This document shows, one piece after another, positions 128 to 41,526 of a stretch of 41,526 nt of DNA; within the stretch, counting starts at the first letter, position 1; every line of letters begins with the position of its first letter. Origin of the DNA: a virus. The translations under genes were made by a program, and so were the position numbers. The stretch covers positions 1-41,526 of the IMG/VR virus record IMGVR_UViG_3300028653_000003. One strand, written 5' to 3'. The notes beneath the pieces were generated by a model that made no database searches, had not been told where the DNA came from, and saw nothing but the letters and a program-made list of their open reading frames with translations.

Positions 128-2060
128 ATTCAACGCTCTTTCACCAGCATCAATGAAAGGTGACCTCCTTGTGGGTACTGGGGCGAGCACTGTCCGCTTC
201 CCAATCGGGGCTGACAACCTAGTTCTCACGGCAGACTCAACACGGGTAACCGGACTTAATTGGAAGGCGGGGATTGGCGGGCAGTATCAAAATTTCGCGG
301 TTAACCCCAACTGCGCAAGCGGAAACACTAACTACACGGCATCGGCGGGCGCCATCACTCAAGAGATTGGTGCTGGAAATCTTGCCGTCCCATCCTCGGC
401 AGCCTCTTGTAAGTGGGTTACAACGACCGCAGGCGCGACCCTTACGAATGACCCATACACAATCATAAGCGGAGCAGGACCCGGACAACTTAACGGAGCC
501 GCTGCTTGTTACTTCAAAACCACGGCCTCGACCTTCTCGCTTGTTGCCATGAGCGGTGGAGTCGCTACGGGTAATGTTCAGGCGATCCCTGCTGGCGCTA
601 ATTTCGTCCCGGTAGCCTCTAACGAGGGATTCCCGGATTCTGGCACAATCCAGTGGCAGATCCAACACACTGGAGCGGCCTCAGATACCATCTACTTCGG
701 TGGGTGTTTCCTGGGTGATGCTAAAGGTGTGAACCTCCAGAACGTGAGCCAGGCACAGCTTCTCGGCACAGTAACAATTTCTGGGTGTGCGGCGCAGTTT
801 TCAACAACAAGCGCCTCCATGGCAGAATTTGGAACCCAGACCGGGTGCGTTTACACGCTAACCGGACAGGCGCTGGCACCAAGCACCAACATTCCCGCAA
901 TTAGATTTGCGTCTGTTCCCGCAGGCGAAATCGTTATCGAATATGAGGGCGGCCTGCAAACGTCCACGGGCGGATTTGAGTCTTATTTCCAGTTCTGGGA
1001 TGGTACTAATACTGCCAGAGAAAAGGTTACTCTTTATACCAACAATACCACTGGCATGATGCTGCCAGGGACCAGACAGTCCATGACGTACTCTAGCGGG
1101 GCGTCCAACGTGACGTTCTCGCTTCGCGGATCTGTAAGCGCAGGTGGCACGGCTAGAGTCAATAACGGAGGTGGTGGCTGGCCGCAGGGCGTGATTAAGG
1201 TCTACGTGTTTCCATCTCAGAACCAACTCGCCGTCACGCCGGACATGACGCCGGGGAGTTGGAGCGGGTATCACGACATAACCTGTCAATGGACACGGAC
1301 CAATGTGGCCTACGGTAACCCAGCCATTGATTCATCCTGTGCCTTGGTTGAACAATTAAATCAGAACTTTGGTTCTGTTACGAGCTACAACGACGGTACG
1401 CCCGGCAATAATTATCCGGGCATCGTCTTTACCCCAAAGAAGGCGGGAAATTATTTCGTTTGCGCACAACCACAGGTATGGAACGGAAGTAATGGGGGCG
1501 ACGCCACCGTTGCCTTGACTGCTGGCGGAGCTTTCCCCCCAATATCAGAACATTCAGTACAAATACCCACTTCTAGCAACGGCGGTCAGACAATGACGTT
1601 ATGTGGAAAAACATACGCGTCATCTACTGCCCCAGTCACACTCAGTCTTCAGATTAGGTCTGTAACTGGGACGACATATATCCTGGGCAATAATGCCTCG
1701 TATATGTCAGTCGGATGGACCATTTTCTACCTCGACAACTCGCTGCCGTCGCCGGTCGTACTTCCTCGCTTTACCTCTGCACAGGTGACCGTAAGTAATT
1801 CTGCCGCAGCGGTTGTACATCAAATCGGTAACTGGCTCTCTGTGGCAAACGGGGCTGGCGCTGGTTTGACCACGGGGACAATCACCGGATTCACCACTAC
1901 TCCAGACTGTTCTTGTACGGTTGTTGGCGCAGCTAGTACGTCGGCGTCATGGTGTGGGTTTACGGCAGACCCGACAAATACAACTCTTTTAATTACCCGA
2001 ACACGAGCGGGAGCGGCTGAAAACGGCAACGTCAATATCGGATGCACATGGAGTCAATAA
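1..2060 (+). CDS. Tail fibre, C-terminal part (continues from 39299..41526)
   Basis: This is the downstream part of the fibre gene that starts at 39299 and crosses the contig junction. Codons are in phase 3 here, the frame that joins exactly with the end of the window. An apparent ATG at 69 lies inside the repeat and is not a start. The joined protein is about 1386 residues if the repeat number is right. After the last partial repeat (GGTGASNSTAA) come beta-rich, Ser/Thr/Gly-rich segments typical of trimeric fibre shafts and receptor-binding heads. The segment has 14 cysteines; four are in the last 85 residues (DCSC, WC, GC), which is high for a phage fibre. The stop TAA (2058-2060) overlaps the ATG of the next tiny ORF. 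The fibre presumably binds a host surface glycan or protein. The exact domain family of the tip was not recognised. Confidence 0.85.
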   Translation, partial: AARLSLGAAASGVNTDITELAGLTTMLPLTEGGTGASNSTAAFNALSPASMKGDLLVGTGASTVRFPIGADNLVLTADSTRVTGLNWKAGIGGQYQNFAVNPNCASGNTNYTASAGAITQEIGAGNLAVPSSAASCKWVTTTAGATLTNDPYTIISGAGPGQLNGAAACYFKTTASTFSLVAMSGGVATGNVQAIPAGANFVPVASNEGFPDSGTIQWQIQHTGAASDTIYFGGCFLGDAKGVNLQNVSQAQLLGTVTISGCAAQFSTTSASMAEFGTQTGCVYTLTGQALAPSTNIPAIRFASVPAGEIVIEYEGGLQTSTGGFESYFQFWDGTNTAREKVTLYTNNTTGMMLPGTRQSMTYSSGASNVTFSLRGSVSAGGTARVNNGGGGWPQGVIKVYVFPSQNQLAVTPDMTPGSWSGYHDITCQWTRTNVAYGNPAIDSSCALVEQLNQNFGSVTSYNDGTPGNNYPGIVFTPKKAGNYFVCAQPQVWNGSNGGDATVALTAGGAFPPISEHSVQIPTSSNGGQTMTLCGKTYASSTAPVTLSLQIRSVTGTTYILGNNASYMSVGWTIFYLDNSLPSPVVLPRFTSAQVTVSNSAAAVVHQIGNWLSVANGAGAGLTTGTITGFTTTPDCSCTVVGAASTSASWCGFTADPTNTTLLITRTRAGAAENGNVNIGCTWSQ

Positions 2061-4089: not shown

Positions 4090-4500
4090 ATGAATCTCTC
4101 CCTTACCCGATGTCACTGGGATATAGACGGAATATTCGGAGAGCTGCACTCAGAGCAAAGCCACTTGATTTGTGAGACTCTCGAGCACGCATACCTGCAC
4201 GGCGATACTTACTTTGCTAAGATCCCGCCTGGGGGATATATCTGCAAGCGTAGCCAACACCGGCTCCATGGCATGCAGGAAGACTTCGAGACATTCGAGG
4301 TCATGGGGGTGCCCGGCCATACTGGCCTCTTATTCCACTGGGGAAATTTCAACCGGGACTCCGAGGGCTGTATCCTGCTCGGTGAGGCTATCAAGATAAC
4401 CGAGGACAAAGAAGAGATGCTCACTAACTCCAGGAGAGCATTTGCTTCTTTTATGGCTTTACAGGACGGTTCGGATGAGTTTACACTCATAGTATCCTAG
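4090..4500 (+). CDS. DUF5675-like protein, candidate lysis enzyme (136 aa)
   Basis: The protein matches the DUF5675 pattern seen in many phage lysis cassettes: C-E-T-L-E near residue 30, IPPGGYICKRS at about 45-55, VPGHTGLLFHWGN at about 74-86, and DSEGCILLG at about 90-98. The spacing H-x-G-N...S-x-G-C resembles the catalytic His/Cys arrangement of YkuD-type L,D-transpeptidases, so a peptidoglycan-active role is plausible but inferred. A strong AGGAGG site precedes the ATG. It is the first gene of a probable lysis group that continues with small membrane proteins and a lipoprotein. No other endolysin was recognised in the window. Confidence 0.7.
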   Translation: MNLSLTRCHWDIDGIFGELHSEQSHLICETLEHAYLHGDTYFAKIPPGGYICKRSQHRLHGMQEDFETFEVMGVPGHTGLLFHWGNFNRDSEGCILLGEAIKITEDKEEMLTNSRRAFASFMALQDGSDEFTLIVS

Positions 4501-4770: not shown

Positions 4771-4940
4771 CCCCGAATCAGTTATTCGTAATAGCTTTGC
4801 TTAAGCAGCTGGGGGTTATCCTAGGAATTCTTGCTGCTGCTCACGTCGATAACCGGGTATTCCCCTGGATGAGAAAAAATGCCAACCGAACCGAATCAGC
4901 CGCTCCCCACGACGAATCAACCCGCGACGTACGCCAATAA
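4767..4940 (+). CDS. Small single-span membrane protein (57 aa), holin/spanin candidate
   Basis: GTG at 4767 overlaps the preceding TGA (GTGA). Residues 6-27 form one membrane segment (LFVIALLKQLGVILGILAAA) interrupted by KQ. A polar, charged tail follows (WMRKNANRTESAAPHDES). The 3' end overlaps the start of the next gene by 62 bases in another frame. Position next to a candidate endolysin and a lipoprotein suggests a lysis role (holin or inner-membrane partner). This is inference from context only. Confidence 0.55.
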   Translation: MTPNQLFVIALLKQLGVILGILAAAHVDNRVFPWMRKNANRTESAAPHDESTRDVRQ

Positions 4941-5274
4941 AGTCGTAGGGGATCTCATGGGCCTGGGTGAAACCGCAGTGGAGACAGCCGCGGAGGCTGC
5001 TGCTCCCTTTCTCGCTTACCCCGTGATTAAACAGATATGGGAAGCGCTCCTACATTGGATCTTTGTCACGCTCGGTGGCGCACTCGGAAAGCTTGCGGGA
5101 TACGTGGTGCTAGACATCGAGGAGTATCAAGCCATCAAAACAGCGTCGGACACCCTGCTCGCCCTGGATGCCGCGCGCACTGTAGGAGATCAACATGCGA
5201 TCCAAACGGCCAGTGATGCAGCTGATGATGCTGCCGCTGCTCTTATACACTATTACGGCTCTATCCAGTCTTGA
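4879..5274 (+). CDS. Putative membrane protein in lysis cassette (131 aa)
   Basis: The N-terminal 25 residues are Pro/Thr/Asn-rich. At about residues 45-80 lies a hydrophobic stretch (IWEALLHWIFVTLGGALGKLAGYVVL) that could span the membrane once. The C-terminal third is an Ala/Asp-rich helix. Small phage proteins of this design near endolysins are often holins, but the family was not recognised. The 3' end overlaps the next (lipoprotein) gene by 80 bases. Confidence 0.6.
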   Translation: MPTEPNQPLPTTNQPATYANKVVGDLMGLGETAVETAAEAAAPFLAYPVIKQIWEALLHWIFVTLGGALGKLAGYVVLDIEEYQAIKTASDTLLALDAARTVGDQHAIQTASDAADDAAAALIHYYGSIQS

Positions 5275-5593
5275 GGGCTGCGGAAGTCTTCAGGTCCCTG
5301 TCGTGATTAAAGACGAGTCGGTTTATTATCTGAAGGGCACCACGCAGCTCCCGCCTAGTGACGACGACCCGACATACGCCACCATGATGCACTTCCTGAC
5401 CTCGGGTAAGACACCAGTGACCCGCTATCAGTGGAATGCCATAAGCAAGGGTAAGGCATGCATGGATCTCTCAGCATTTGCAGATTTCAATGTTGAGATT
5501 GCGAAACTGTGCAGCCAGGTCCCGTGTAGCTATAAGCTCCAGGCTATTTTGCCGAGGTTAGTCGCGAGGCTGAAGAGAGAGTCTCTCTACTAG
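5195..5593 (+). CDS. Lipoprotein-like, o-spanin candidate (132 aa)
   Basis: The start ATG is supported by AGGAG six bases upstream. Residues 1-29 look like a lipoprotein signal: MRSKRPVMQ, a hydrophobic core, then LEGC with Cys 29. The Glu in the lipobox is unusual. The mature part begins with a short polar linker and VVIKDESVYYLKGTTQLPP. Embedding inside the 3' end of the upstream membrane gene recalls Rz/Rz1 arrangements, so an outer-membrane spanin-like role is possible but unproven. The last 50 bases overlap, tail to tail, the 3' end of the minus-strand Wzy_C-like gene. Confidence 0.55.
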   Translation: MRSKRPVMQLMMLPLLLYTITALSSLEGCGSLQVPVVIKDESVYYLKGTTQLPPSDDDPTYATMMHFLTSGKTPVTRYQWNAISKGKACMDLSAFADFNVEIAKLCSQVPCSYKLQAILPRLVARLKRESLY

Positions 5594-6737
5594 GCTTTCG
5601 TACCAGTGCCTCGGCTAATCCGCACACGAGCACAATGCATAAGCAGTGTATTGGCATCCGCAGGGGATAGTTAAATAATCCAAGCGTACAAAAGCCCATG
5701 AGAGCACCAAAGAGGGCCGGGCGAGGCCACGCCACACTTGCGAGACGAGCCACAGCAGGTGCTATGCACAGCCAGCCGACGATCCCCCCCTCGGTTAGGA
5801 TCTGTAGCCAGTCGTTGTGGAGCCACATGAAATACTCTCCACCAAAATGATTAGTGGTCACTTGCTGGATGGGCAGGAGTATCTGAGAGGTTGAAAATCC
5901 CATGCCGAGTAGTGTGCTGCCACTCTTATCCCAGCAATCAATGGCCATACGCCAGATCATGAATCTTCCACTGTCCCCCCACAGTGCACCGCCTAGCAGC
6001 TTGTGGCTTACTAAAAGCATCAAACCGGCCAGTAAAAGGGTGCCTAGACCACTCAAAAGCCATGCTTTTCGAGGGGTCCGAGCCACAAAAACAGCAGCTG
6101 TAGTCACGCCCAGTACTCCCCACGGTACACTCGCCTCAGTTCGCCAGATCATGAGCAGGGTAAGCAGCCAGCTCCCGCACATGAAGGCCATCTTTGCGCG
6201 AAAGTTATTACGACATATGGTGCCCGCTGTAAACCCCCAGGCGATAGGAAGCAGGCAGGCTAGTAGTCCAGCCGCCATGCTGGGGTTGCCGAACCATAAC
6301 CCATTGAGTGCTGGGTGTGGCAGAGTAACAAGTGCAAATGTGCCTACGGCCCATACGAGCGATAAAAAGACCAGTATCCCCCGCTTCATGCTCTGAGTAA
6401 TTAGGGCGAATAGGGCGGTGCACGCCACAACCTCGAGCACTCCCGAGAAAGCATTCTTTTGGAGGGCCATGAGTGTAATGATGTCGTACGATCTCAGAAA
6501 GGGCTGATACGGCCAGGCCGCTATCGCGAGCATACTAACCAGACAGTAGAGCAGGCCAGGGAAATAGAACCAGCTCGTGCGCCTCGCCACCCAGCCTGAA
6601 AACCCAGCGGCCGCGAGAGTAAGTATAAGCGCCCACTTCGATAGCCAGGTGGCACTCCAGAAGTTTCCCACCCCAAAGAATAATACCGCTACGCCTACTG
6701 CTAAGATAAGCCACGATTCCCACGTCATCTTTCTCAT
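5544..6737 (-). CDS. O-antigen ligase/polymerase-like (Wzy_C) membrane protein (397 aa)
   Basis: This is an integral membrane protein with about ten predicted spans. Its C-terminal half has the Wzy_C / O-antigen ligase signature: SGRFMIWRMAIDCW (about residues 256-269), LLGMGFSTS (276-284), then a periplasmic loop with WLHNDWLQILTEGGIVGW (305-322). These Arg and His positions are those expected of the WaaL/Wzy glycosyltransferase fold. The start at 6737 overlaps the nuclease stop (ATGA) and has GGGGGA upstream, so the 16 residues before it are excluded. It is the last gene of the early block. In temperate phages such enzymes alter host O-antigen (for example phage D3). Here no lysogeny genes are seen, so receptor alteration or superinfection exclusion during lytic growth is the best guess. 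Confidence 0.72.
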   Translation of the reverse strand: MRKMTWESWLILAVGVAVLFFGVGNFWSATWLSKWALILTLAAAGFSGWVARRTSWFYFPGLLYCLVSMLAIAAWPYQPFLRSYDIITLMALQKNAFSGVLEVVACTALFALITQSMKRGILVFLSLVWAVGTFALVTLPHPALNGLWFGNPSMAAGLLACLLPIAWGFTAGTICRNNFRAKMAFMCGSWLLTLLMIWRTEASVPWGVLGVTTAAVFVARTPRKAWLLSGLGTLLLAGLMLLVSHKLLGGALWGDSGRFMIWRMAIDCWDKSGSTLLGMGFSTSQILLPIQQVTTNHFGGEYFMWLHNDWLQILTEGGIVGWLCIAPAVARLASVAWPRPALFGALMGFCTLGLFNYPLRMPIHCLCIVLVCGLAEALVRKPSRETLSSASRLTSAK

Positions 6738-14712: not shown

Positions 14713-14823
14713 TGGCGTTCCGTCATAAAAAGTACAGTCTTCGTCCACGTCGTGACTCCAGCCACAAAGACCGTCGCACCCTCCGCGCCTTATGAGCTGA
14801 ACATGTCGAGCTGCGTCTTGCAT
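14674..14823 (-). CDS. Small Cys-rich protein (49 aa; possible longer form with membrane segment)
   Basis: ATG at 14823 has AGGAAGG just upstream and gives a 49-residue protein with GGCDGLCGW and EDC, a possible metal site. A longer reading from 14919 would add 32 residues that form a membrane span (LFIVAGTIFLVGLW) plus an Arg-rich stretch. That form would overlap the PP-loop gene by 130 bases instead of 34. Both starts are possible. The stop overlaps the DUF3850-like start (ATGA). The C-terminus LINPVPADAGEK is echoed in the next protein. Confidence 0.55.
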   Translation of the reverse strand: MQDAARHVQLIRRGGCDGLCGWSHDVDEDCTFYDGTPLINPVPADAGEK

Positions 14824-15623
14824 AAGCCTTCCTCGTCTTCGTCTGTTGGCACTGGACCGCCAGAGTCCCACCAAGAAAATAGTTCCTGCCACGATGAAAA
14901 GTTTCGAGAACCAAACCATTCCTCACCGTCCTTCTGTTTTGTTCCTGCTTTCCGGTCCCACAGCCTTTGAAAAAGGCGTTTCCACAAAAATAGATACTTT
15001 GGCCACCTGGCAAACTCGTTTGCCCGCCCTTGCCTTGTCGCCGATGGACATCCAACACACCCCAGGCGCTTAAACCCCTCATCGTAAAGAGAACAATATT
15101 TGATCCCGTTGCCCCTAATAAACTCCCACACATCGGCGTCGGACCAATACAGGATCGGAGAAAGCGCCCATGTTTTGGTTTTGCTGTGCATTGTAATTGG
15201 CTTCCACCGCTTCGCCCTCGCCGCGCTTTCTGCTGCGCGAACACCTAACAGCATTACTGCGCCATGCGGTGCGGCAGTTTCCTTGTATTCCGCGCAACAC
15301 CACCGGCAGATGCGAGTAGGAAACCCTTTTTTCTCGGCATATTTGAAAAAGTTTCCGTGGGGCGAAAACAAAAACTTTACGTCAGGATGATGCTTTCGGT
15401 TGAATTGAACTAGCTCGGGCGGATCAATCGTCGTGACGTTGTAGTGCCATTTCACTCGAACGCCAGCAATCCGGGCCAGCTCCTTGATAACAACCGAATC
15501 CTTCCCCCCAGAGAAGGCCCCCAAAAAAACATCTTGTGGCTGGTGTGCACGAAGCAGCTCAACCGACGCGCGAACACGCTCGTCAAGAGAGAGGCCAAGC
15601 CCAGGAAGAACGGCTCCGCTCAT
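14790..15623 (-). CDS. PAPS reductase-like PP-loop enzyme (277 aa)
   Basis: This is an adenine-nucleotide alpha-hydrolase (PP-loop) protein: FSGGKDS at 37-43, then CRWCCAEYKE (Cys 106, 109, 110), GVRAAESAARAKR (127-139), and GCVGCPSA (Cys 189, 192). The Cys pairs could hold an iron-sulfur cluster, as in DndC and in many phage PAPS reductase-like proteins. The family reduces sulfonucleotides or transfers sulfur to nucleic acids. Partner dnd or ssp genes are absent here, so a DNA phosphorothioation role is not supported. Its 3' end overlaps the small Cys-rich gene, and its start overlaps the upstream stop (ATGA). Confidence 0.8.
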   Translation of the reverse strand: MSGAVLPGLGLSLDERVRASVELLRAHQPQDVFLGAFSGGKDSVVIKELARIAGVRVKWHYNVTTIDPPELVQFNRKHHPDVKFLFSPHGNFFKYAEKKGFPTRICRWCCAEYKETAAPHGAVMLLGVRAAESAARAKRWKPITMHSKTKTWALSPILYWSDADVWEFIRGNGIKYCSLYDEGFKRLGCVGCPSATRQGRANEFARWPKYLFLWKRLFQRLWDRKAGTKQKDGEEWFGSRNFSSWQELFSWWDSGGPVPTDEDEEGLCKTQLDMFSS

Positions 15624-16294
15624 CCCGACTCCCCCTGTTTCTCGTCCATCAGCGCTCGGTACTGTCGTAGTTTATCCATTACAGAATCAGTAACCTTAGC
15701 CGCCTCTGCCTCGACTAAAGTGCGTGCTATGCTGTTAACTATAAAGTCCGACTCTCGAAGAGCATCCAGAGTCTCCCTCGAAATCAAAACCTGGCCTTCA
15801 GGAACAGATATATTGAACTTCGCCGCAACCGAAGCATGTCCTAAAACTTTCGTGCCCTGCGGGGCAACCAGGGCATCTTGAAGTTCTTTGCCAAATTCTT
15901 CTGCTCGACAGGTCCGACAAGGGGTTCCGTGTTTATGTGCGTCGTTGTCACAGTCATAATTAGATGCAAGGTCGTATGCAAAACGCTCTGATCTTACGGC
16001 TATTTTGCGTAGTTCTTCACACCTGCGCTCACTCTCGGCAAGCTTGGCGCTTAGACCCGAAGCTTTTGCTCTCATAGCAAAGAAGCTTTCTGAGTTATCG
16101 TCGCGAGTTTTTATTTCTTCGGATAGCTGAGCGTCCTTCGCGTCGAGCTGTGGCTGTAATAAAAGTTGCCCATATTCAATCGCCAGTAGAATGTCTTTTA
16201 CAACGATCTGGTGTGCGCTCCTGGTCCTGTCGGGCGTGTATCCGTCGGCAACCTTGTGAGCAAAATCTAGTGCGCATTCGTCTGTAGTGGTCAT
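15620..16294 (-). CDS. Coiled-coil protein with Cys cluster (224 aa)
   Basis: A helical region at about 50-105 has heptad character (LSAKLAESERRCEELRKIA). The middle contains C-(x3)-D-x-H-K-H-x3-C-R-T-C, a probable metal site. The C-terminal part is again helical. No family was recognised. The start overlaps the preceding gene (ATGA), as does the end. It is probably an early protein acting on host functions or replication, by position only. Confidence 0.6.
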   Translation of the reverse strand: MTTTDECALDFAHKVADGYTPDRTRSAHQIVVKDILLAIEYGQLLLQPQLDAKDAQLSEEIKTRDDNSESFFAMRAKASGLSAKLAESERRCEELRKIAVRSERFAYDLASNYDCDNDAHKHGTPCRTCRAEEFGKELQDALVAPQGTKVLGHASVAAKFNISVPEGQVLISRETLDALRESDFIVNSIARTLVEAEAAKVTDSVMDKLRQYRALMDEKQGESG

Positions 16295-16530
16295 GTTTTA
16301 CTCCTGTGCTTCTCAAGTGCATTCCTGGCTATCTCCCGACGTTCACGTTCACGCAGCGGCTGAAGCGCCTCGATCTCTTCTAGTGCTCCCTCAAGCGCCG
16401 CAACCTCCTCGTCGCGGGAGGCGTGGCCTGCGAGGAATCCCCCGGCGAGATAATCAACCATTTCCGCTTCTGAGAACCTGAACCGAAGCGCGTACTCGTA
16501 TGCACGCTTGTTTACTTCTTTGTCTTTCAT
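16291..16530 (-). CDS. Hypothetical early protein (79 aa)
   Basis: This is a small helical, charged protein with an Ala/Glu-rich centre (DEEVAALEGALEEIEAL) and an Arg-rich end. No family was recognised. It sits in a run of ATGA-coupled early genes, overlapping 16527..16796 upstream and 15620..16294 downstream. Confidence 0.6.
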   Translation of the reverse strand: MKDKEVNKRAYEYALRFRFSEAEMVDYLAGGFLAGHASRDEEVAALEGALEEIEALQPLRERERREIARNALEKHRSKT

Positions 16531-16796
16531 GGCCCCTGCCTTACTGGATCAATTTCTGATCTATAATCAGACCATGCACGCAGAAACCTTTTTGCCTCGT
16601 CTGCCTGCATGTAAAGATTCGGCTCAAAATTAACAAAAGCGTCCACCCACCGTGAGCACTTAAAAACTATTGTTATGCATTCTTCCCAGCCCTTGCGAAG
16701 GTCCTTGTTTATATACGCAACATCACACATGGGGATGATGTTGTACGTCCCACTGTAAATAGTTTCGCTCGCCAGCCGCTCTTTGTTGTCAGCCAC
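16527..16796 (-). CDS. Hypothetical early protein (89 aa)
   Basis: GTG start at 16796, two bases after the stop of the upstream KGG gene. Aromatic-rich and mixed alpha/beta, with no recognised motif. The stop overlaps the next ATG (ATGA). Confidence 0.55.
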   Translation of the reverse strand: MADNKERLASETIYSGTYNIIPMCDVAYINKDLRKGWEECITIVFKCSRWVDAFVNFEPNLYMQADEAKRFLRAWSDYRSEIDPVRQGP

Positions 16797-16798
16797 GA

Positions 16799-17110
16799 CT
16801 ATTCACTTTCTCTCTCGCGGTATTTCCGCTGCTCTCTCAGGCATTCCGTGCAGTCGAATGCCCCACACTCACTACACCTGCGCCTACGATTAGCGTGTGC
16901 GGCCTCTCCACCCATTTTTCCGATCCGAGCCATGTGCGCGCGGTTAGCAGAAGTAACAGCCCCGCCCTTTTTGCCGAGGGCAGACATATGCGCTTTGTCC
17001 TTGGAGACCGCCAAACCACCTTTTCGCGAAAATGCGCTTCGGTCACTGGGCGATAAATTCTTGAGCCACTCACCTTGCCTACACGTTTGCCCGTTCTTAA
17101 GCAGTTTCAT
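16799..17110 (-). CDS. KGG-repeat protein with C-terminal zinc motif (103 aa)
   Basis: Three repeats of about 19 residues follow the pattern (K/M)GG.A.....AHM..(L/I)GK at about residues 29-80. These recall the KGG motif of bacterial stress proteins. An Arg-rich stretch and CSECGAFDCTEC, a likely four-Cys zinc ribbon, come next. Basic repeats plus zinc suggest nucleic-acid binding (inference). The start overlaps the upstream gene (ATGA). Confidence 0.7.
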   Translation of the reverse strand: MKLLKNGQTCRQGEWLKNLSPSDRSAFSRKGGLAVSKDKAHMSALGKKGGAVTSANRAHMARIGKMGGEAAHANRRRRCSECGAFDCTECLREQRKYRERESE

Positions 17111-19284: not shown

Positions 19285-19338
<54 letters not shown>

Positions 19339-19552: not shown

Positions 19553-19900
19553 ATGCGTTTGTTGTTTCTTGCACTTTTGCTGATGTCCACTGCCGCGGTA
19601 GCGGATTTCAATCCAGCGCCCACAAGCGTAGGGTTATATAATTTTTCAACAGTCTCTGTGTCTAATCTCGCGGCCTCGACAATCGCTGCGAGAAACTTAT
19701 ACAGGGCCGGTTTAATAATTCAGAATAACGGTGGGGTGTCCGTAGTCATTAAGCCTGGAAGTGCGCCACAAAATGCCACTGATGGCATAGTATTGACCGC
19801 AGGGACCATGATCCAGTTAGTACCACCGCCAGTAGATTCTATCTGGGGCCTGAGTTCTGGGGCAAATGCGAAAGTCGTTTTAATCGAGAACGTTAAATAG
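19553..19900 (+). CDS. Exported structural-like protein with signal peptide (115 aa)
   Basis: Residues 1-17 are a clear Sec signal (MRLLFLALLLMSTAAVA), with cleavage likely before DF. The mature part resembles small phage structural proteins of the type RAGLIIQNNGGVSVVIKPGSAP..ATDGIVLTAG. These normally lack a signal peptide and occur as head or fibre accessories. It is the first gene of the rightward late block, just before the small terminase. No good ribosome site is seen, and the nearest promoter candidate would give an almost leaderless message. Confidence 0.65.
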   Translation: MRLLFLALLLMSTAAVADFNPAPTSVGLYNFSTVSVSNLAASTIAARNLYRAGLIIQNNGGVSVVIKPGSAPQNATDGIVLTAGTMIQLVPPPVDSIWGLSSGANAKVVLIENVK

Positions 19901-19909
19901 AGGTTGTGT

Positions 19910-20488
19910 ATGAAAGGATTCCAGATGAAAAGTTTGATCCTGGTTCTTCTCCTGAGTTTATTCCCGCTATCCGCGCTTGCAGATCTTGAGGGGGCACCGT
20001 ATATCCCGGAGATAGATGCGAGGTTTAATGCCGTAGAGCAGGGGAATCACTTCAAGACGACTTGTGGGAGCGTGGGGGGTGTGGGCTCATGCGATGGGCA
20101 CTGGGCACGGCAACTTGTGTCAGCCACGTATGACTTCTCAACTTTGACTGGCTCGAGCACACTCAACGCTGGAATTTATAACCTTGGTGTGAGTATCCCG
20201 GCGAATTCTATAATCACTGAAAGTGCGCTGTATTCGGGGATTAAGCCTAGCTCGGTGAATAGCGCTACCCTGGGATTTTACTGCCAGAACAGTGCTGACA
20301 TAATCACGGACACGCTTTACTCTAGCTACGGGGCCGCGGGTGTGGCTATCAACGGGTCATCGTCGGGAGCTACCGTAGGCAACTTCAAGTACATCACGGC
20401 GAAATGTGATGTGCATGCAAAGATCGCCACGGGGAATCTTATCGCGGGCCGCGTGACGGCATTCGTGGAGTACTGGACCCATCACTAG
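19910..20488 (+). CDS. Exported Cys-containing structural-like protein (192 aa)
   Basis: Two starts are possible. ATG 19910 (GAGGT upstream) and ATG 19925 (AAAGGA upstream) both lead into a Sec signal (KSLILVLLLSLFPLSALA, then D). The mature part is beta-rich with IYNLGVSIPANSIITES, a motif found in phage structural proteins. It carries four cysteines (CGSVGGVGSC, FYC, AKC) that could form disulfides outside the cytoplasm. It follows the first late gene by 9 bases. Role unknown; an exported virion or cell-surface component is inferred. Confidence 0.65.
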   Translation: MKGFQMKSLILVLLLSLFPLSALADLEGAPYIPEIDARFNAVEQGNHFKTTCGSVGGVGSCDGHWARQLVSATYDFSTLTGSSTLNAGIYNLGVSIPANSIITESALYSGIKPSSVNSATLGFYCQNSADIITDTLYSSYGAAGVAINGSSSGATVGNFKYITAKCDVHAKIATGNLIAGRVTAFVEYWTHH

Positions 20489-20502: not shown

Positions 20503-21078
20503 GTGGCCAAACGTAAAAAGGCTCTGGATGAACTCCGAGAGGACCTACCCACCGTCGTTGACATAGGACCAAAGCAGCCATCGCCATATCGGGAGATGTA
20601 CTCACTCGATCTTGCCAAAAGAATCGCTGATTACTACGGGCAGGGAAAAACACTCACCTGGATCGCCGCTCAGAGTGGCATGCCCGCTTACGGTACGCTT
20701 ATCAAGTGGTCTAAGGAACACGCCGAGTTGTCACGGATGCTTAGAGGAGTGCGCGAGGCACGAGCACTACACTACGAGAACTCAGCCATTGAGACCGCGG
20801 AGAATGCCTGCGGAAAAGATGCGGATCGCCTAAAGTTTGAGGCATACAAGTGGGGAGCCGAGGTCAATGACCCTGGTACATATGGAAAAAAGGTAACTCA
20901 CGCAGGGGACCAGACAAACCCGGTTGTGCTAAAGGTGGTCACTGGATTTGGAGAACCAAACTCGTGGCAACAAGAGCCTAAACTTAAAGCCGACGGAACG
21001 ATTGAGGTGGAAGCAGATGGCAAAGAAGGACAGATTGAAGAACAAGCCACTCCTAAATCTGAACCCACACTGGGTTGA
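20503..21078 (+). CDS. terS: Terminase small subunit (191 aa)
   Basis: GTG start. A helix-turn-helix-like segment (about residues 45-67: GKTLTWIAAQSGMPAYGTLI) is followed by WSKEHAELSRMLRGVREAR, the pattern of phage small terminases that recognise the packaging site. The C-terminal 70 residues are polar and low in complexity. Position directly before the large terminase (one gene between) supports the call. The last 62 bases overlap the next gene. Confidence 0.82.
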   Translation: MAKRKKALDELREDLPTVVDIGPKQPSPYREMYSLDLAKRIADYYGQGKTLTWIAAQSGMPAYGTLIKWSKEHAELSRMLRGVREARALHYENSAIETAENACGKDADRLKFEAYKWGAEVNDPGTYGKKVTHAGDQTNPVVLKVVTGFGEPNSWQQEPKLKADGTIEVEADGKEGQIEEQATPKSEPTLG

Positions 21079-21451: not shown

Positions 21452-22794
21452 TGGAAATTATTGGCTCTGATAACCCGGTCATAATCAATACCGGATTTAT
21501 CCCGCGGAGAATTCAGTCAGAGCTGTATGCCAACATGCGCAGATTCAATGTGGTGGTCTGCCATAGGCGCTTCGGCAAAACCGTTTTCGCTGTAAATCAT
21601 CAGATCAATAAGATGCTGAGGTACACCCTCCCGGCACCTCGCGCGGCATATATCGCGCCAACATACGGGCAGGCAAAGCGTATCTCGTGGGACTACTATA
21701 AGCATTATACGTCAAAGATACCGGGGGCAGTCCCGCACGAGCAGGATCTCAGGGTTGATTACACGCACAATGCTGGGAGGCAGATGCTTCTCTCGGCCGA
21801 AAACTATGTGAGTGTCAAGGGCATCTACCTCGATGATGCCGTGCTTGACGAGTACGCCGAGATGCACCCATCTGCATGGTCTGAAGCTGTGCGCCCGACC
21901 CTGAGTGATCGACGTGGTGGCGCTACATTCATTGGGACACCGAAGGGGATGAATAACTTTCAAACTCTTTATAGGTATGCCACGGAGTCTGGAGACCCAG
22001 AGTGGTATGGGTGTATGTATCGCGCGAGCGAGACCGGGCTAATAGCCGGGGCAGAGCTTGAGTCCGCTCGCCGCAGCATGAGTGAGGAAGAATATGAACA
22101 GGAATATGAGTGCTCTTTCTCCGCAGGACTGGTGGGTGCGTATTTTGCTAGGGAGATGGCTAAGGCCAATTGCGGGGGACGTATCGGAAAGTTTCCGTAT
22201 GATTCTAACTACGCTGTGGACACCTACTGGGACCTCGGAATCAATGACATGACCGCGGTGTGGTTTGTCCAGTCAAAACGTGGGCAGCACGTAGCGATTG
22301 ATTATTACGAGATCTCGGGAGCGTCGATCCCGGAGGTCCTAGCCGACATCAAGAAGAAACCATACTCTCTTGGATATTTTGTGTTCCCACACGATGTGGT
22401 GGCGAGGGATTTCTCCACGGGTAAAACCCAGCAACAGATATTCGCTCAACATGGTGCCAGGCCATCGCGGGTGATACCTAGGGTGGGGACTAAGCGCGAG
22501 GGCATCAATGCTGCTCGGATGATTATCCCTCTGACTAGTTTCGACAAGGAGAAGTGCAAGCGTGGGATCGAGTGCTTACAAAATTACCAGAGGAAATGGG
22601 ACGACAAGAACAAAGTATTCCAGGAAGCGCCGCTGCACAATTGGGCGTCCAATGGGGCTGACGCATTCCAGCAATTTGCTTTGGGACAGCGCGGAGAGTC
22701 TAAAAATAGTGACTTCCGAGAAAATCCAGACTACAATCATGGGCAGACACGTGCCATGACGGATTATAATGTTTTTGATCGGGGGCAGCGATAA
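21451..22794 (+). CDS. terL: Terminase large subunit (447 aa)
   Basis: This is the DNA packaging motor. Walker A is CHRRFGKT (37-44), Walker B is AVLDEYAEM (D133, E134), and a coupling-type motif is IGTPKG (161-166). The C-terminal RNase H-like nuclease has WDLGIND (D261), FPHDVVARD (312-320) and a final NGADAFQQF. Length is normal for a podovirus enzyme. It overlaps the genes on both sides by one base (TGATG, TAATG). Confidence 0.95.
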   Translation: MEIIGSDNPVIINTGFIPRRIQSELYANMRRFNVVVCHRRFGKTVFAVNHQINKMLRYTLPAPRAAYIAPTYGQAKRISWDYYKHYTSKIPGAVPHEQDLRVDYTHNAGRQMLLSAENYVSVKGIYLDDAVLDEYAEMHPSAWSEAVRPTLSDRRGGATFIGTPKGMNNFQTLYRYATESGDPEWYGCMYRASETGLIAGAELESARRSMSEEEYEQEYECSFSAGLVGAYFAREMAKANCGGRIGKFPYDSNYAVDTYWDLGINDMTAVWFVQSKRGQHVAIDYYEISGASIPEVLADIKKKPYSLGYFVFPHDVVARDFSTGKTQQQIFAQHGARPSRVIPRVGTKREGINAARMIIPLTSFDKEKCKRGIECLQNYQRKWDDKNKVFQEAPLHNWASNGADAFQQFALGQRGESKNSDFRENPDYNHGQTRAMTDYNVFDRGQR

Positions 22795-23294
22795 TGGGTG
22801 GGGTTGGGGCAGAGGGCGGAACCGCAAGCAGGTCTGGCAACTATGAGCAGAGGTTTGTCGGGGAAAACCCGCTTAACTTGCCCACATATGCTGGAGATAC
22901 GTCCCAGCTCGGAAGTTTTATAAAGACAGGGGAAGGCAAACAGTACGCGGGACTTTATCGAGAGGGTGATGTCTATCGGACAACCACGGGAGCAATATAT
23001 CGAAAAAACATGGCCACAGGACAGTATGATCCTGGTGAAGCAAACGATGTCTCCAAGATGCTCCAAGCGTACACCGCATGGACTGCTGGCAACGCCGCGA
23101 CCCAAAATAACTGGCAGAATTATGCGAATGCTGTAAAGGGCCAGGGAGAACAGGCTACAGTATTGGGTGGCCCGGCCGAGAGCCAAAGACAAGTTTTGCT
23201 TGGGGAGATGGCTAAACAAACTGCTCCAACATCGGGGCTTGGCAAGATGGGCACTATGCCCGATGGGTCGAAAAAGAAGCTGGGGTCTATCTAA
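22794..23294 (+). CDS. Hypothetical protein between terminase and portal (166 aa)
   Basis: Gly/Ala/Gln-rich protein with no recognised family. It contains YREGDVYRTTTGAIYRKN and AYTAWTAGNAATQNNWQNYA, and ends with a basic SKKKLGS. One-base overlaps on both sides (TAATG) place it firmly in the head operon. A minor head or packaging-related protein is inferred from position only. Confidence 0.6.
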   Translation: MGGVGAEGGTASRSGNYEQRFVGENPLNLPTYAGDTSQLGSFIKTGEGKQYAGLYREGDVYRTTTGAIYRKNMATGQYDPGEANDVSKMLQAYTAWTAGNAATQNNWQNYANAVKGQGEQATVLGGPAESQRQVLLGEMAKQTAPTSGLGKMGTMPDGSKKKLGSI

Positions 23295-25036
23295 TGAGCA
23301 TCGACGCAACCTCATATGGCCTGAATCCCGGCGTTACTACCGACACATTTACTGATGTGATGACTTCTGGCGATCAGACCCAGGAAAAGAGGGATGAGGC
23401 GCAACGATTATTCTCGCGCTGGGCGCAGATGGATACTGCGGCCATCAACTGGAAATTGCACTGGCAGAGAGTTTACGAGTTTATAGTCCCGAGAAAAGAA
23501 GATGTTATTGCAGTCCGAATGCCTGGCGATGATCGAGAAAGCGATATCTACGACACTACACCAGTGCTGGCTAATGAACAGTTAGCCGCAGCTCTTCACT
23601 CGATGTTGACAAATCCAGAGCTTAGGTTCTTTGAACTTTTGTTCGGAGACCCAAACATAGACGTGCTTCCACAGGTTAAGCAGTGGTGTGAGACTTGCGC
23701 AGATAGCATGTACCAAGTTCTGAATACATCTAACTTCCAGACCGAAATTCACGAGGCGTACATTGACCTCGGGGCCGCTGGTACCGCTTGCCTCTACATG
23801 GAGGAAAACCCAGAATTTGTCATTCACTTCTCGACCAGAGCGCTAAAGGAAATTCGTCTGGACGAGAATTACCTTGGACAGGTAGACACTGTCGCGCGCA
23901 TGTTCAAGTTGCGCCCCCATCAGATTCTTCAGAAGTTTCCAAACCTGAAAGAGGACTTCTTAAATTCTGCTCTTCAAACCAACGCGGATAAGAATGCCAC
24001 GGACCAGATTCAGATTTTGCATATAATAGAGCCGGTGGCTGCTGTCAGGGATAAGGCTCACGCGGAAAAGGTCAAAGCCAAGGGGCATAAATTCTCGTCG
24101 AGCTATATGCTCTACGACAAGAAGACCATCATATCGCAAGAGAGTTATCTTGAGTTCCCATGCTGCACGCCTCGTTGGTCAAAGACCACGGGCGAACTCT
24201 ATGGCCGTGGACCAGGATTTCAGATGTTGCCAGACATCATGATGCTAAATGCAATGATGCTGACCGTGATCCAGGGCGCCCAGAAAACGGTAGATCCTCC
24301 CTTAATGGTTGAGGATGATGCCGTGATCGGACAGGTCAGGCTAACCCCCGCGGGACTTACCATTATACGTGCGGGGTCTCAACCACCTAAGCCACTCATT
24401 ACGGATGCCCGTATCGATTTTGGGCAGAAGATGCTCGAGGATGTTCGCAAGAGAATTCGACAGGGGTTTTACGTTGACCAGTTGAAGTTACCCCAGGAGT
24501 CTCCTCAGAGGACCGCTGAGGAAGTTCGCGCGCTCATTGAAGAGCAGATGCGCCTCATGGGTCCGGTACTCGGGCGGCAGCACTTTGAACTTCTCAGACC
24601 CTTGGTGGCCACGCTATTTGCGATCATGGATCGTAGGAATATGTTCCCACCTCGGCCCCCACAAATTGTGGGCAGGAAATTCATAGCTCGGTACTCGTCA
24701 CTCTTAGCGCGCGCACAGCGTATGCAGGAGATGCAGAATATCCAGCGCGCGATCGTGACACTCCAGCCGATAGCCCAGATGCGTCCGGACATCATGGATA
24801 ACGTAAAACTGGACGAGTTGACCAAGGAAGTTTTAACTGGGTATGGCGTGCCCGAAAGGCTGATGCCGACAGACCAAGAATTACGCCGGATACGCCAGGC
24901 CCAGAAACAAATGGCTGCGGATGCCAAGGCCAAGGCAGACCAGCAACATCAGAGCGAGGTAGCCAAGAATATGGCACCGATGGTCCAGCAGATGGGTAAC
25001 GCTCAACAACAGCCAACGATGGGAGGACAACAGTAG
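23294..25036 (+). CDS. Portal (head-tail connector) protein (580 aa)
   Basis: Residues 30-110 show the connector pattern of T7 gp8-like portals: RDEAQRLFSRWAQMD, WQRVYEFIVPRK, then DIYDTTPVLANEQLAAALHSMLTNP. Central sequences (GTACLYMEE, STRALKEIRLDE) and a C-terminal helical, Gln-rich tail also match. The portal forms the dodecameric ring through which DNA is packaged and ejected. Position after the terminase and before the scaffold is standard. Confidence 0.92.
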   Translation: MSIDATSYGLNPGVTTDTFTDVMTSGDQTQEKRDEAQRLFSRWAQMDTAAINWKLHWQRVYEFIVPRKEDVIAVRMPGDDRESDIYDTTPVLANEQLAAALHSMLTNPELRFFELLFGDPNIDVLPQVKQWCETCADSMYQVLNTSNFQTEIHEAYIDLGAAGTACLYMEENPEFVIHFSTRALKEIRLDENYLGQVDTVARMFKLRPHQILQKFPNLKEDFLNSALQTNADKNATDQIQILHIIEPVAAVRDKAHAEKVKAKGHKFSSSYMLYDKKTIISQESYLEFPCCTPRWSKTTGELYGRGPGFQMLPDIMMLNAMMLTVIQGAQKTVDPPLMVEDDAVIGQVRLTPAGLTIIRAGSQPPKPLITDARIDFGQKMLEDVRKRIRQGFYVDQLKLPQESPQRTAEEVRALIEEQMRLMGPVLGRQHFELLRPLVATLFAIMDRRNMFPPRPPQIVGRKFIARYSSLLARAQRMQEMQNIQRAIVTLQPIAQMRPDIMDNVKLDELTKEVLTGYGVPERLMPTDQELRRIRQAQKQMAADAKAKADQQHQSEVAKNMAPMVQQMGNAQQQPTMGGQQ

Positions 25037-26570: not shown

Positions 26571-27512
26571 ATGAATTTCAATATAGAACAGTGGCGCGTC
26601 CAAGCTTATACCGCGAACGTCTACCAACTCGCGCAGCAGCGCGCTTCACGTTTGGGACCCGTGGTCCGAACGGAAGTCTTCAAGGCAAAGACCGAATATT
26701 TCGATCGTATGGCGCTCGCGACTGCGCAGAAGAAAACTTCTCGCAATACCCCGACGCCAAATCTCGACATCACGTTGTCCCGCCGGGCGGTGACGACCTC
26801 GATGTACGAGTGGGCGACCCTCGTAGATCGTAAGGACAAGCTCCTTCAGATCCACGATCCCGAGAATCAGTTCGCGCAAGCGGCCTCGATGTCTCTGGGC
26901 CGTGCGATGGACGTTTCGATCATAAACGGTGCTCTCGGCACAGCGGCAACAGGTGAGTCAGGCTCGACCTCTACATCACTCCCGAATGCTCAGAAGTTGG
27001 CTTGCGTTTCTCAAGGCGCAATCAGCTCTCTGAATGTTTCGACTCTTCTGAAAGTAAAACAGAAGTTCGACGCTGCGGAAGCTGTCGGACCCCGTTACCT
27101 TGTCCACAACGCTGCCCAGCTGGTATCGTTGCTGCAACAGACTCAGGTAACATCCTCGGATTACAACACGGTTCGCGCGTTGGTTCGTGGCGAGATCGAC
27201 ACCTACCTGGGATTTAAGTTCATTCATACCGAACTTATTCTCCCGAGTTCGACCTACTCGAGTGCATTCACGGCAGATCCGGCCACTGGCCTGTATTCAG
27301 CCGCGAGTGGATATCTCGCTTTGGGTGGTTCGGAAAATTCCGCATTCGCCTTTGTGGGCGATGGCATCATCCTCGGCAAGAACGAGGAAGCCGTTGGCCG
27401 TATCGACGAGCGCCCTGATTTCTCATACGCCATGCAGGTCTATAACAGCATGGACTTCGGTTCGGTTCGTATGGAAGAAGTCAAGGTAGTGGAAATTATC
27501 TCGGCCGACTAA
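26571..27512 (+). CDS. Major capsid protein (313 aa)
   Basis: Length, position after the scaffold, and the pattern of HK97-fold podovirus capsids support the call: an N-terminal helix with RTEVFKAKTEYFDRM; TPNLDITLSRRAVTTSMYEWATLVDRKD in two parts (65-95); and a long beta-rich domain ending DFSYAMQVYNSMDFGSVRMEE. It resembles the BPP-1-type capsid group. Only one cysteine is present, in contrast to the exported structural-like proteins. The gene has a strong GAGGAG site and a structured 5' leader. Confidence 0.88.
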   Translation: MNFNIEQWRVQAYTANVYQLAQQRASRLGPVVRTEVFKAKTEYFDRMALATAQKKTSRNTPTPNLDITLSRRAVTTSMYEWATLVDRKDKLLQIHDPENQFAQAASMSLGRAMDVSIINGALGTAATGESGSTSTSLPNAQKLACVSQGAISSLNVSTLLKVKQKFDAAEAVGPRYLVHNAAQLVSLLQQTQVTSSDYNTVRALVRGEIDTYLGFKFIHTELILPSSTYSSAFTADPATGLYSAASGYLALGGSENSAFAFVGDGIILGKNEEAVGRIDERPDFSYAMQVYNSMDFGSVRMEEVKVVEIISAD

Positions 27513-27541: not shown

Positions 27542-28036
27542 ATGTCTACAGTTTATAAGGGCGTAAATTATGCCGAGACTCAAACGAGTCCTCCGACTCA
27601 GATTGAGGAAGGCCAGTACAATGCTATCGCGAAGCATATCCTCGATCAGTTCGTTATGACCGCGGACCTTGCCTCGGGAGATACGGTTCTGGTGGGCGGG
27701 CCGATCCCCGCCGGTGCGGTTCTATTGAATGCCGTGCTAACAGCACAGGCACTCGGTGGTTCAGCCGCCTTGAATTTCGGCTATCAAGCCGGAGTTTCTG
27801 GCCCGACTGGTTCGATTGCTGCAGAGGCCGCGGTAGCTACCGCGTTCTTCTCGGCTCTTCCGGTCAGTACCGCGACCGTAGCACTTGCGCATGGGAGCAC
27901 CTATGAAGGCGCTTTCTACACGCAGGTTCCGCTGACCTCTCAGGTTCAGCCGGTCATTACTTGTTCGGTTGCGTCGTCTGGCGCGACAGGAAAGTCGATC
28001 ATGGTCGACATTTCCTATACGAAAAGCGGTGGTTGA
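27542..28036 (+). CDS. Head decoration/minor capsid protein (164 aa)
   Basis: Beta-rich, low in charge, directly after the capsid gene and before a strong terminator. Segments such as GDTVLVGGPIPAGAVLLNAVL and AALNFGYQAG (about 50-82) match small head proteins next to capsid genes in related podoviruses. A cementing or decoration role is inferred. Confidence 0.7.
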   Translation: MSTVYKGVNYAETQTSPPTQIEEGQYNAIAKHILDQFVMTADLASGDTVLVGGPIPAGAVLLNAVLTAQALGGSAALNFGYQAGVSGPTGSIAAEAAVATAFFSALPVSTATVALAHGSTYEGAFYTQVPLTSQVQPVITCSVASSGATGKSIMVDISYTKSGG

Positions 28037-39298: not shown

Positions 39299-41526
39299 AT
39301 GAGAAAACTACTCGTCGGGCTTAGTCTGGTTGTTGCGATTGTCTGCTGTGTGCCGAATATCTTGCACGCGGTGGTGACGAATACTGCGACTGAAACAATC
39401 ACGGGGCTTGGGAATAGCGTAGCCACGTCATTTCCTATTACGTTCGACTTCCGGGATAATGCCTGGGTCAACGTAACTCTCTACGATACCACGACGAATC
39501 CCGCGACGGTAGTGGCAGTGAGTCAGGGTGGCGGGGCCGGGAACTTTACGGTCTCGGGGGGAAACCCAGGGACCGCGGTACTCATGGGCACGGCGCCCAC
39601 GTCGCATCAGTATCTGGTGATCAGCCGGAGTGTGCCGCTCACCCAGGGTGTGGTTTTCAATCCGGCGAGTATATTCCCATACCAGGGCCTGAGCGCAGAA
39701 CTTGACAAGGTTACTCTGGCATTACAGAGCGTGAATGCTGGTTTTGAGTCATCCACACCGGGTGGAACTCCCCCGGCGGGATCGAGCGGGAGTCTCCCTA
39801 GCCCTGGCGCTGCCTACGATTTCATCGGGTGGAATGCCGCGGGCGCGAGCACCGTCAACGCAACGGTAGCGTACGACGCTGGCCAGACAACTTTCGTGGT
39901 GGGCGACGGCATAGTTTTTAATGGCGCGGGCTGGGCTACCTACCCGATGACCTCAAGTAATCTGGTTAATACGATCAACCTAGGTAATAGTCCCCTAGGC
40001 CCTGGCGTGGGTGGATCGGGTGTCTCTAACAGCGGTCTCCTCACCTGGGGGCACAACGCCCTAACCTTCACTACCGCGGGCGTCACTAATTTGATGCTCC
40101 CACAGTCTGGCACCGTGCTCACGGGCACCGCGACGAATAACAACGTAGGCTCAACGATCGTCGAGCGGGATTCCAGCGGAAATTTCACCGCGGGGACTAT
40201 CACCGCAGCCCTCTCTGGAAACGTCACGGGCAACGTGACCGGAAACGTCACGGGGAATACCTCGGGCACCTCGGCAAATGTCACAGGCATCGTTGCTATA
40301 GGCAACGGAGGGACCGGCCAGACTGCTCGCCAAACCGCTATCAACGGGCTGCTTGACACAGGCTCAGGTGTCTCGGGCGACTATCCCCGGTTCAACGGGA
40401 CCGATGTAACTCTCACCCACATTATCACCGGAGATCTCCCGCAGAATATCCCATACTCCAAAATGGAGCAGCAAACCCACAACGCTCTCCTCTGGTCCGA
40501 TAACTCGGGTGACGAGGGCGTGATCGCGACAAGTTCAACGGCGGGATATGTTTTGACTTCTGACGGTGTGCGCCCACGTTGGGCAACCCCCACAGGTGGG
40601 TCTGGTGGGGGCATCCCATACGGTGCTGACACTGGTGTGGCCGATGCTTACGTAGTTCTAAACCCAGTTCCATCGGTAACATCATACATCGTTGGGCAGC
40701 CAGTTTCTTTTGTGGCTGCAAATGCCAACACAGGTGCGGCCACTCTTGATGTGTTCGGACTGGGCGTGGTGGGGCTTACTGCGCAAGGTGGTTCTGCTCT
40801 CACCAAAGGAGACATCATCGCGGGCGCCCTGGTCCTCGCCATATACGATGGCACAAAGTTTCAGATGATCTCGCCACAAGGTATCGCGGTTTCTCCGAAC
40901 ACAGTAAATACCACCGTAAAACGAGACAACGCCGGGAATTTTAGCGCCAACATAATCACCGCGGATATCATTGGCTCTGCGAGCACCGTTACAGGCACAG
41001 TTCCTCTCACAAATGGCGGGACCGGAGCGTCGAACAGCACGGTAGCCAGGTTCAACCTCGGGGTAGCAGCGTCAGGGGTTAATACCGACATCACCGAGCT
41101 TGCCGGTTTGACCACGATGCTCCCCCTCACAGAGGGCGGAACCGGAGCGTCGAACAGCACGGCAGCCAGGTTCAACCTTGGGGCAGCAGCGTCAGGGGTT
41201 AATACCGACATCACCGAGCTTGCCGGTTTGACCACGATGCTTCCACTCACAGAGGGCGGAACCGGAGCGTCGAACAGCACGGCGGCCAGGCTTAGCCTCG
41301 GGGCAGCAGCGTCAGGGGTTAATACCGACATCACCGAGCTTGCCGGTTTGACCACGATGCTTCCACTCACAGAGGGCGGAACCGGAGCGTCGAACAGCAC
41401 GGCGGCCAGGCTTAGCCTTGGGGCAGCAGCGTCAGGGGTTAATACCGACATCACCGAGCTTGCCGGTTTGACCACGATGCTTCCACTCACAGAGGGCGGA
41501 ACCGGAGCGTCGAACAGCACGGCGGC
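39299..41526 (+). CDS. Tail fibre, N-terminal part with Sec signal peptide (continues at window start)
   Basis: The start ATG has a good ribosome site (GGGAG, about 6 bases upstream) and follows the stop of the internal virion gene by 2 bases. Residues 1-24 form a textbook Sec signal peptide: RK, a hydrophobic core LLVGLSLVVAIVCCV, and a likely cleavage after LHA. Next comes a region resembling the T7-type fibre attachment domain: TATETITGLGNSVATSFPITF, then YLVISRSVPLTQG, then LDKVTLALQS, at about residues 27-145. Gly/Ser linker, NVTG repeats, a first GGTG motif and four 40-residue repeats follow. The attachment domain has no internal Met start, so the signal peptide appears to be part of the translated protein. 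The order after internal virion proteins matches T7 gene 17. No stop occurs before the window end; the frame continues at base 128. Confidence 0.88.
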   Translation, partial: MRKLLVGLSLVVAIVCCVPNILHAVVTNTATETITGLGNSVATSFPITFDFRDNAWVNVTLYDTTTNPATVVAVSQGGGAGNFTVSGGNPGTAVLMGTAPTSHQYLVISRSVPLTQGVVFNPASIFPYQGLSAELDKVTLALQSVNAGFESSTPGGTPPAGSSGSLPSPGAAYDFIGWNAAGASTVNATVAYDAGQTTFVVGDGIVFNGAGWATYPMTSSNLVNTINLGNSPLGPGVGGSGVSNSGLLTWGHNALTFTTAGVTNLMLPQSGTVLTGTATNNNVGSTIVERDSSGNFTAGTITAALSGNVTGNVTGNVTGNTSGTSANVTGIVAIGNGGTGQTARQTAINGLLDTGSGVSGDYPRFNGTDVTLTHIITGDLPQNIPYSKMEQQTHNALLWSDNSGDEGVIATSSTAGYVLTSDGVRPRWATPTGGSGGGIPYGADTGVADAYVVLNPVPSVTSYIVGQPVSFVAANANTGAATLDVFGLGVVGLTAQGGSALTKGDIIAGALVLAIYDGTKFQMISPQGIAVSPNTVNTTVKRDNAGNFSANIITADIIGSASTVTGTVPLTNGGTGASNSTVARFNLGVAASGVNTDITELAGLTTMLPLTEGGTGASNSTAARFNLGAAASGVNTDITELAGLTTMLPLTEGGTGASNSTAARLSLGAAASGVNTDITELAGLTTMLPLTEGGTGASNSTAARLSLGAAASGVNTDITELAGLTTMLPLTEGGTGASNSTA
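41003..41526 (+). repeat. 120-bp in-frame tandem repeat in tail fibre gene
   Basis: Four full 120-bp units start near 41003, 41123, 41243 and 41363. A fifth, partial unit starts at 41483 and diverges after the AACAGCACGGCGGC stretch. Each unit encodes 40 residues of the form LTEGGTGASNST..ARxxLG.AASGVNTDITELAGLTTM. The first unit is the most divergent, and the last two are nearly identical. This pattern indicates recent homogenisation or expansion. The unit length is a multiple of three, so copy-number change would lengthen or shorten the fibre without breaking the frame. Confidence 0.95.

Follow-up and report, generated by a model that had tools for sequence, protein, structure and literature searches.

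Predicted Sec signals on fibre- and cement-like proteins of podoviruses, and a possible route for completing tailed-phage virions outside the cytoplasm

To our knowledge, tailed phages are understood to build all of their virion proteins in the cytoplasm. Sec signals do occur on virion components of the filamentous phages, where the coat proteins gp3 and gp8 of M13 carry them and assembly takes place in the membrane; the phages considered here, in contrast, are tailed, have dsDNA genomes and form their capsids in the cytoplasm. Among parts that join late in vitro, tail fibres and tailspikes are the classic examples. The Dec protein of phage L is made in the cytoplasm and has an OB-fold, unlike the cement-like protein described below. 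It attaches to P22 capsids in vitro and so provides a precedent for accessories that join mature capsids late and out of solution (PMC6449081). Phage proteins that use the host Sec pathway have been described in the form of the SP-endolysins, which are Sec-exported lysins (PMC8951688); these are lysis enzymes, however, whereas the proteins of interest here are fibre- and cement-like. In the open-access papers searched, we found no description of Sec signals on the fibres or structural proteins of tailed phages.

The DNA analysed is a stretch of 41,526 nucleotides, positions 1 to 41,526 of the IMG/VR virus record IMGVR_UViG_3300028653_000003, referred to as the window. It represents a podovirus: its portal is of the head-tail connector type (Pfam E 1.6e-121), its capsid belongs to Phage_capsid_2 and its small terminase is Sf6-like. 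Among named phages, those closest to it by portal infect Pelagibacter and are of the HTVC010P type. The early genes run leftward and the late genes rightward, with two small genes, ORF 1 and ORF 2, at the head of the late block and immediately 5' of the small terminase gene (Table 1). Positions 1..127 are identical to 41400..41526, and the genome is therefore circular or circularly permuted. Since an end repeat of the same 127 bases in length is also found in a relative, G001, and in another podovirus, G007, the window ends suggest an assembler overlap on a circular molecule rather than a biological terminal repeat. A TerL scan of the genome collection revealed no prophage relative.

Table 1. 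Features of the window, in window coordinates.
Feature	Position	Strand	Remarks
ORF 1 (P0001), small predicted-exported protein, 115 aa	19553..19900	+	predicted signal 19553..19603, cut after AVA
ORF 2 (P0002), 187 aa from refined start	19925..20488	+	predicted signal 19925..19981, cut after ALA; alternative start 19910
Small terminase subunit	20503..21078	+	immediately downstream of the ORF 1/ORF 2 pair
Portal	23294..25036	+	no signal; internal control; used to find relatives
Major capsid protein	26571..27512	+	no signal; internal control
Unexported cement-slot protein	27542..28036	+	directly 3' of capsid gene; comparison; same profile class as ORF 2 domain
Tail fibre, N-terminal part	39299..41526	+	predicted signal 39299..39370 (MRKLLVGLSLVVAIVCCVPNILHA); T7-type particle-binding domain to about 39742
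Tail fibre, C-terminal part	128..2060	+	across circular junction; Cys-rich distal region
Fibre shaft repeat	about 40860..41526 and 1..200	+	tandem repeat of ~40 residues (LPLTEGGTGASNSTAA...), exactly at contig junction
DUF5675 gene	4090..4500		DUF5675 also annotated in KHP30
Putative lipoprotein	5195..5593	+	LEGC near end of hydrophobic N-terminus; overlaps 4879..5274; near DUF5675 gene
O-antigen-ligase-like protein	5544..6737	-	multi-pass membrane protein
PAPS-reductase-type protein	14790..15623	-	resembles the phage-defence proteins BrxP and DndC (PADLOC E 6e-16)
CATAGTC repeat	19285..19338		7-base unit, 7.7 error-free copies; intergenic, between divergent early and late blocks

Signals were called by a simple rule of our own, which requires a positively charged n-region, a hydrophobic core and a small-X-small cleavage site; applied as a check to eight well-known signal sequences, it recognized five. 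In its strict form the rule fires on 1.2% of shuffled proteins, and in its relaxed form on 9 of 1935 shuffles (0.47%). A preliminary description of this DNA, made from the sequence alone, had assigned Sec-type signals to the frames 19553..19900 and 19910..20488, and both frames are present with predicted signals. The N-terminus of ORF 1 reads MRLLFLALLLMSTAAVA up to the predicted cut and DFNPAP after it. For ORF 2 the start was refined to the second ATG, at 19925, because AAAGGA lies 6 nt upstream of it and the homologues begin there; from this start the protein reads MKSLILVLLLSLFPLSALA, with the predicted cut before DLEGAP. The same description had named a fibre as the third signal-bearing protein, and a signal is indeed predicted at the ATG at 39299. 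The hydrophobic cores of ORF 1, ORF 2 and the fibre score 3.42, 3.41 and 3.54, respectively. In their features for Sec and signal peptidase I, ORF 1 and ORF 2 satisfy the strict rule, while the fibre, with the cleavage site LHA, fails it and passes only the relaxed one.

By this rule, none of the terminase, portal, scaffold, capsid, tail-tube and internal virion genes, nor any of the remaining late genes of the window, combines a positive n-region, a hydrophobic core and a cleavage site, which bears out the earlier statement that capsid, portal and tail tube lack signals. Where hydrophobic N-termini occur elsewhere in the window, they are those of small membrane proteins and of the O-antigen-ligase-like protein; proteins of similar appearance to the latter occur in G001 (15776..16942) and in another phage of the survey, G004. 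A lipoprotein route was rejected for the three proteins, as ORF 1 and ORF 2 have no lipobox (L-[ASTVI]-[GAS]-C) and the CC in the fibre signal does not follow one. The Tat route was likewise rejected, the twin arginine being absent. Elsewhere in the window, the putative lipoprotein at 5195..5593 is possibly an outer spanin.

The relatives bear on whether these N-termini are a conserved property. In G001, a complete and also circular genome whose portal is 80% identical to that of the window, all three signals co-occur, on the homologues of ORF 1, ORF 2 and the fibre. Its ORF 1 homologue is 57% identical and reads MKLFVALVLALFTQAAYA before the predicted cut and DQNPAP after it. In G003 a different protein, again with a signal, stands in the place of ORF 1, and a relative of that protein, signal-bearing too, is found in the Synechococcus phages Yong-M4-211 and Ssp-JY42. 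ORF 1 itself contains no cysteine. Its structure model is unusable (pLDDT 39), leaving the fold unresolved, and hhalign gave no match to the family of proteins in the cement slot after the capsid gene. Neither ORF 1 nor ORF 2 has a significant family in Pfam, PHROGs or PADLOC.

For ORF 2 the comparison is broader. Homologues occur in G001 (53% identical, with signal), in G003 (with signal) and at L019, L138 and L142-L148, and a signal is predicted in ten of ten distinct homologues, across different genomic settings. At L138, L144, L145, L147 and L148 the gene lies in a morphogenetic cassette, 3' of a portal-size gene and 5' of scaffold-like and capsid genes. ORF 1, ORF 2 and their homologues gave no tblastn match among 50,697 phage records, and the ORF 2 family is therefore known here from metagenomic phages only. 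In these homologues the conserved mature sequence begins directly after the cleavage site. This observation speaks against hydrophobic N-termini that remain uncleaved and serve as anchors, tying assembly or packaging to the inner membrane; the strength of the cores would suit such anchors, but the cores are short and are followed by small-X-small sites, and a second transmembrane segment is absent, which leaves anchoring improbable. The four cysteines previously counted in ORF 2 are confirmed. Two cysteines are invariant across 10 sequences of the family, each mature homologue has 2, 4 or 6, and the two further cysteines of the window protein are jointly absent in G001 and G003, as would be expected for a disulfide pair.

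The mature part of ORF 2 consists of a conserved N-terminal arm (GAPYIPEIDARFNAVEQ) of ~40 residues, followed by a beta domain that resembles podoviral capsid cement proteins. A weak model, built from four sequences (pLDDT 54), was compared with the PDB by Foldseek, where the two leading matches were the capsid cement proteins of KHP30 (E 6.7e-5) and, in second place, Pam1 (E 4.3e-4); VIA-align with the same model placed four cement proteins at the top, those of KHP30 (Z 8.5), KHP40 (7.7), Pam1 (7.6) and the Ralstonia phage GP4 (7.2). Sequence and profile links are weak. The best PDB sequence match is the BPP-1 cementing protein, at E 0.48 and 0.3, which is not significant alone. A profile of the cement-slot family matched ORF 2 over 110 columns (E 9.7e-5, probability 58%), but the match vanishes when the profile is built from only three close sequences, so the link depends on the more diverse alignment. 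One member of the ORF 2 family matches phrog_427 (E 0.0032), which sits 3' of the capsid gene in two other phages, vir555 and G025. Given this low-confidence model, a cement fold for ORF 2 is supported but not proven. Weak matches to Rz-like spanins (E 0.025 and 0.22) were set aside, since a lipobox is absent and the architecture differs.

Unlike the podoviral cement proteins, ORF 2 has a signal, the N-terminal arm and the invariant cysteine pair. In KHP30 gp15 and BPP-1 bbp16 the chain starts at the domain, without the signal that is predicted throughout the ORF 2 family. The gene place differs as well: the podoviral cement gene follows the capsid gene, whereas ORF 2 precedes the terminase and its counterparts in relatives may stand between the portal and scaffold genes. 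The earlier label "structural-like" can be kept for ORF 2, on its cement-protein fold matches, and for the fibre, while for ORF 1 it rests on position and a beta-rich look alone.

Joined in frame through the contig ends, the fibre is a protein of 1386 aa that continues with VVTN after the predicted cut. The shaft repeat falls at that junction, and its copy number in the assembly may be wrong. In common with the T7-type tail fibres (PHROG 6518, 1640, 5510 and relatives), the fibre has a complete N-terminal particle-binding domain and is placed after the internal virion proteins. The domain was detected with phrog_6518 and phrog_1640 both in the window (E 1.1e-7 and 1.6e-4) and in G001 (5.6e-8 and 7.7e-7). 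The G001 fibre is 59% identical over the N-terminal part and ends in a Peptidase_S74 chaperone; its cleavage region, NRGWT, is atypical and fails our rule. What sets these fibres apart is the Sec-type signal ahead of the domain. In the window and G001 fibres, the alignment with several PHROG fibre profiles opens at residues 26-28, which correspond to profile position 2-3. Ten outgroup homologues retrieved with the same profile lack a signal, and almost all begin at an ATG exactly where the mature chain of the window fibre would start. This shows, at the level of predicted cleavage, a signal that is a module added in this lineage in front of an ordinary fibre, and the mature product would be a complete ordinary fibre, particle-binding domain included. 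Of the refuting outcome named beforehand, homologues that lack the N-terminal segment, nothing is seen for ORF 1 and ORF 2; it is met by the fibre outgroups, in the sense of an added module.

That outgroup fibres begin at this very point would also suit the production of two forms from each gene, one exported and one leaderless and cytoplasmic, initiated internally and incorporated into virions. None of the three window genes has an ATG or GTG at the mature start (DFNP, DLEG and VVTN), however, and we consider two such forms very improbable.

A survey of 21 phage genomes indicates how widely such signals occur. Among 387 ORFs of at least 200 aa, the relaxed rule made 14 calls, against 1.8 expected from shuffles; ten fell on fibres or fibre-slot proteins, one on the O-antigen-ligase-like protein, one on a lipoprotein and two on other proteins (270 aa in G021, and 209 aa at the record end in vir555). 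Chance hydrophobic N-termini without function might be invoked, as we devised the rule for the present work and about 1% of shuffles trigger it, but this excess, mostly on fibre and fibre-slot proteins, and the unbroken presence of signals across the ORF 2 homologues make chance scarcely credible. The claim of a selective exported set is upheld by the same homologues, by the three signals of G001 and by G025, a distant podovirus of a group found via L138, which has a signal-bearing ORF 2 homologue, an unexported adaptor and a predicted-exported fibre of 1110 aa with LPVANGGTG repeats, like the LPLTEGGTG of the window fibre.

In G004 (L109 1550..7410) four genes in a row encode fibre-like proteins with signals, and they come after an unexported fibre adaptor. 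A similar order is found in vir555 (L111 38140..43157, BK063671), where several signal-bearing fibre-like proteins, one of them beta-helix-spike-like by eye, follow an adaptor; vir555 is assigned to a Methanomicrobiales host, an assignment that may deserve a second look. G007 and G009 each have one signal-bearing fibre-like protein in this slot, preceded by a protein that is not exported. The majority of the phages surveyed do without exported fibres: fibre signals are absent in the control phages HTVC010P, BPP-1, ct3Et533, ctEw122, ctQRb9, DC33, zth2-2, G005, G013, G014, G015, G016, G018 and G021. The 270-aa protein of G021 (IMGVR_UViG_3300009009_000007, 21763..22575, minus strand) has a signal-like N-terminus and an outer-membrane-barrel-like C-terminus ending in GLVYRFW, and is possibly a phage-borne porin-like protein. 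The sample is small and was found via terminase, portal, fibre and ORF 2 homology, so these frequencies are not estimates for phages at large.

Cysteine makes up 1.00% of the predicted-exported mature chains, compared with 0.33% of unexported fibre-slot proteins (p 7.5e-9 by residue, 0.0012 by protein), the controls having been hand-picked from the fibre slot; inside the window alone the enrichment is marginal (p 0.046). Disulfides in the exported proteins are accordingly supported but not proven. Against this, the fibres of G001 and G004 have few cysteines and ORF 1 none, and disulfides cannot therefore be the sole reason for export.

Taken together, signals and cysteine content make export the economical reading. 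The signal-like sequences, their conservation and the domain boundaries are direct observations; export of ORF 1, ORF 2 and the fibre, as predicted from them, is supported but not proven. Made late, the three proteins would pass through the host Sec translocon, be cut by signal peptidase I and fold in the periplasm, in part forming disulfides there, as head and tail assembly proceeds in the cytoplasm. The exported set would consist of outer virion accessories, namely the receptor-binding fibre, ORF 2 as a cement-like protein of the head and, probably, ORF 1 as another small surface protein. Because the cytoplasm is where capsids and tails arise, the exported parts could meet them only once the inner membrane has been opened, at holin triggering or later; with the barriers broken by holin and endolysin, they would attach to completed capsids and tails during lysis or afterwards. 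When and where this joining happens is inferred, and late binding of accessories is plausible given the in vitro behaviour of Dec and of fibres and tailspikes. We put the chances that external virion parts are exported, fold in the periplasm and join cytoplasm-made particles in this way at about even. A large trimeric fibre would have to be exported in the form of unfolded monomers, which is demanding. Candidate selective reasons for export are disulfides, the keeping of receptor-binding parts from cytoplasmic glycans, and receptor masking.

The chief alternative is a role in the host envelope and not in the virion: once released into periplasm and medium, the exported proteins would bind receptors or surface glycans, block superinfection and keep progeny off debris. 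Export would deliver them to where receptors are, the window encodes the O-antigen-ligase-like membrane protein (Wzy_C, E 1.6e-6, under the Pfam cut-off), and the exported proteins of G004 and vir555 lack an adaptor domain. Our strongest argument to the contrary is that the exported chain contains the particle-binding domain, which suggests that it is meant for the virion. In G000 and G001 it is the sole chain found with a T7-type domain of this kind, so that a virion without the exported fibre would have no such fibre. Moreover, genes for ORF 2 homologues are located within the portal-scaffold-capsid cassette, and their products look like capsid cement proteins. Envelope action is in our judgement unlikely, although it remains a serious contender.

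Returning to late joining at lysis, such a two-compartment assembly route was nowhere found described for tailed phages in the open-access literature. Its generalization, that a set of tailed phages in several podovirus groups completes its virions outside the cytoplasm, with Sec-routed fibres and cement-like proteins, periplasmic oxidation and dressing of the particle at lysis, is held more tentatively, at somewhat short of an even chance. The question is testable now, because the isolate Synechococcus phage Yong-M4-211 carries two signal-bearing proteins of similar type, UPT53193.1 and UPT53194.1, and a signal peptide in the fibre slot offers a simple test for annotation. If the route exists, some tailed phages would have a second, extracytoplasmic stage of assembly, disulfide-bonded fibres would become possible, and free periplasmic fibres could also affect superinfection.
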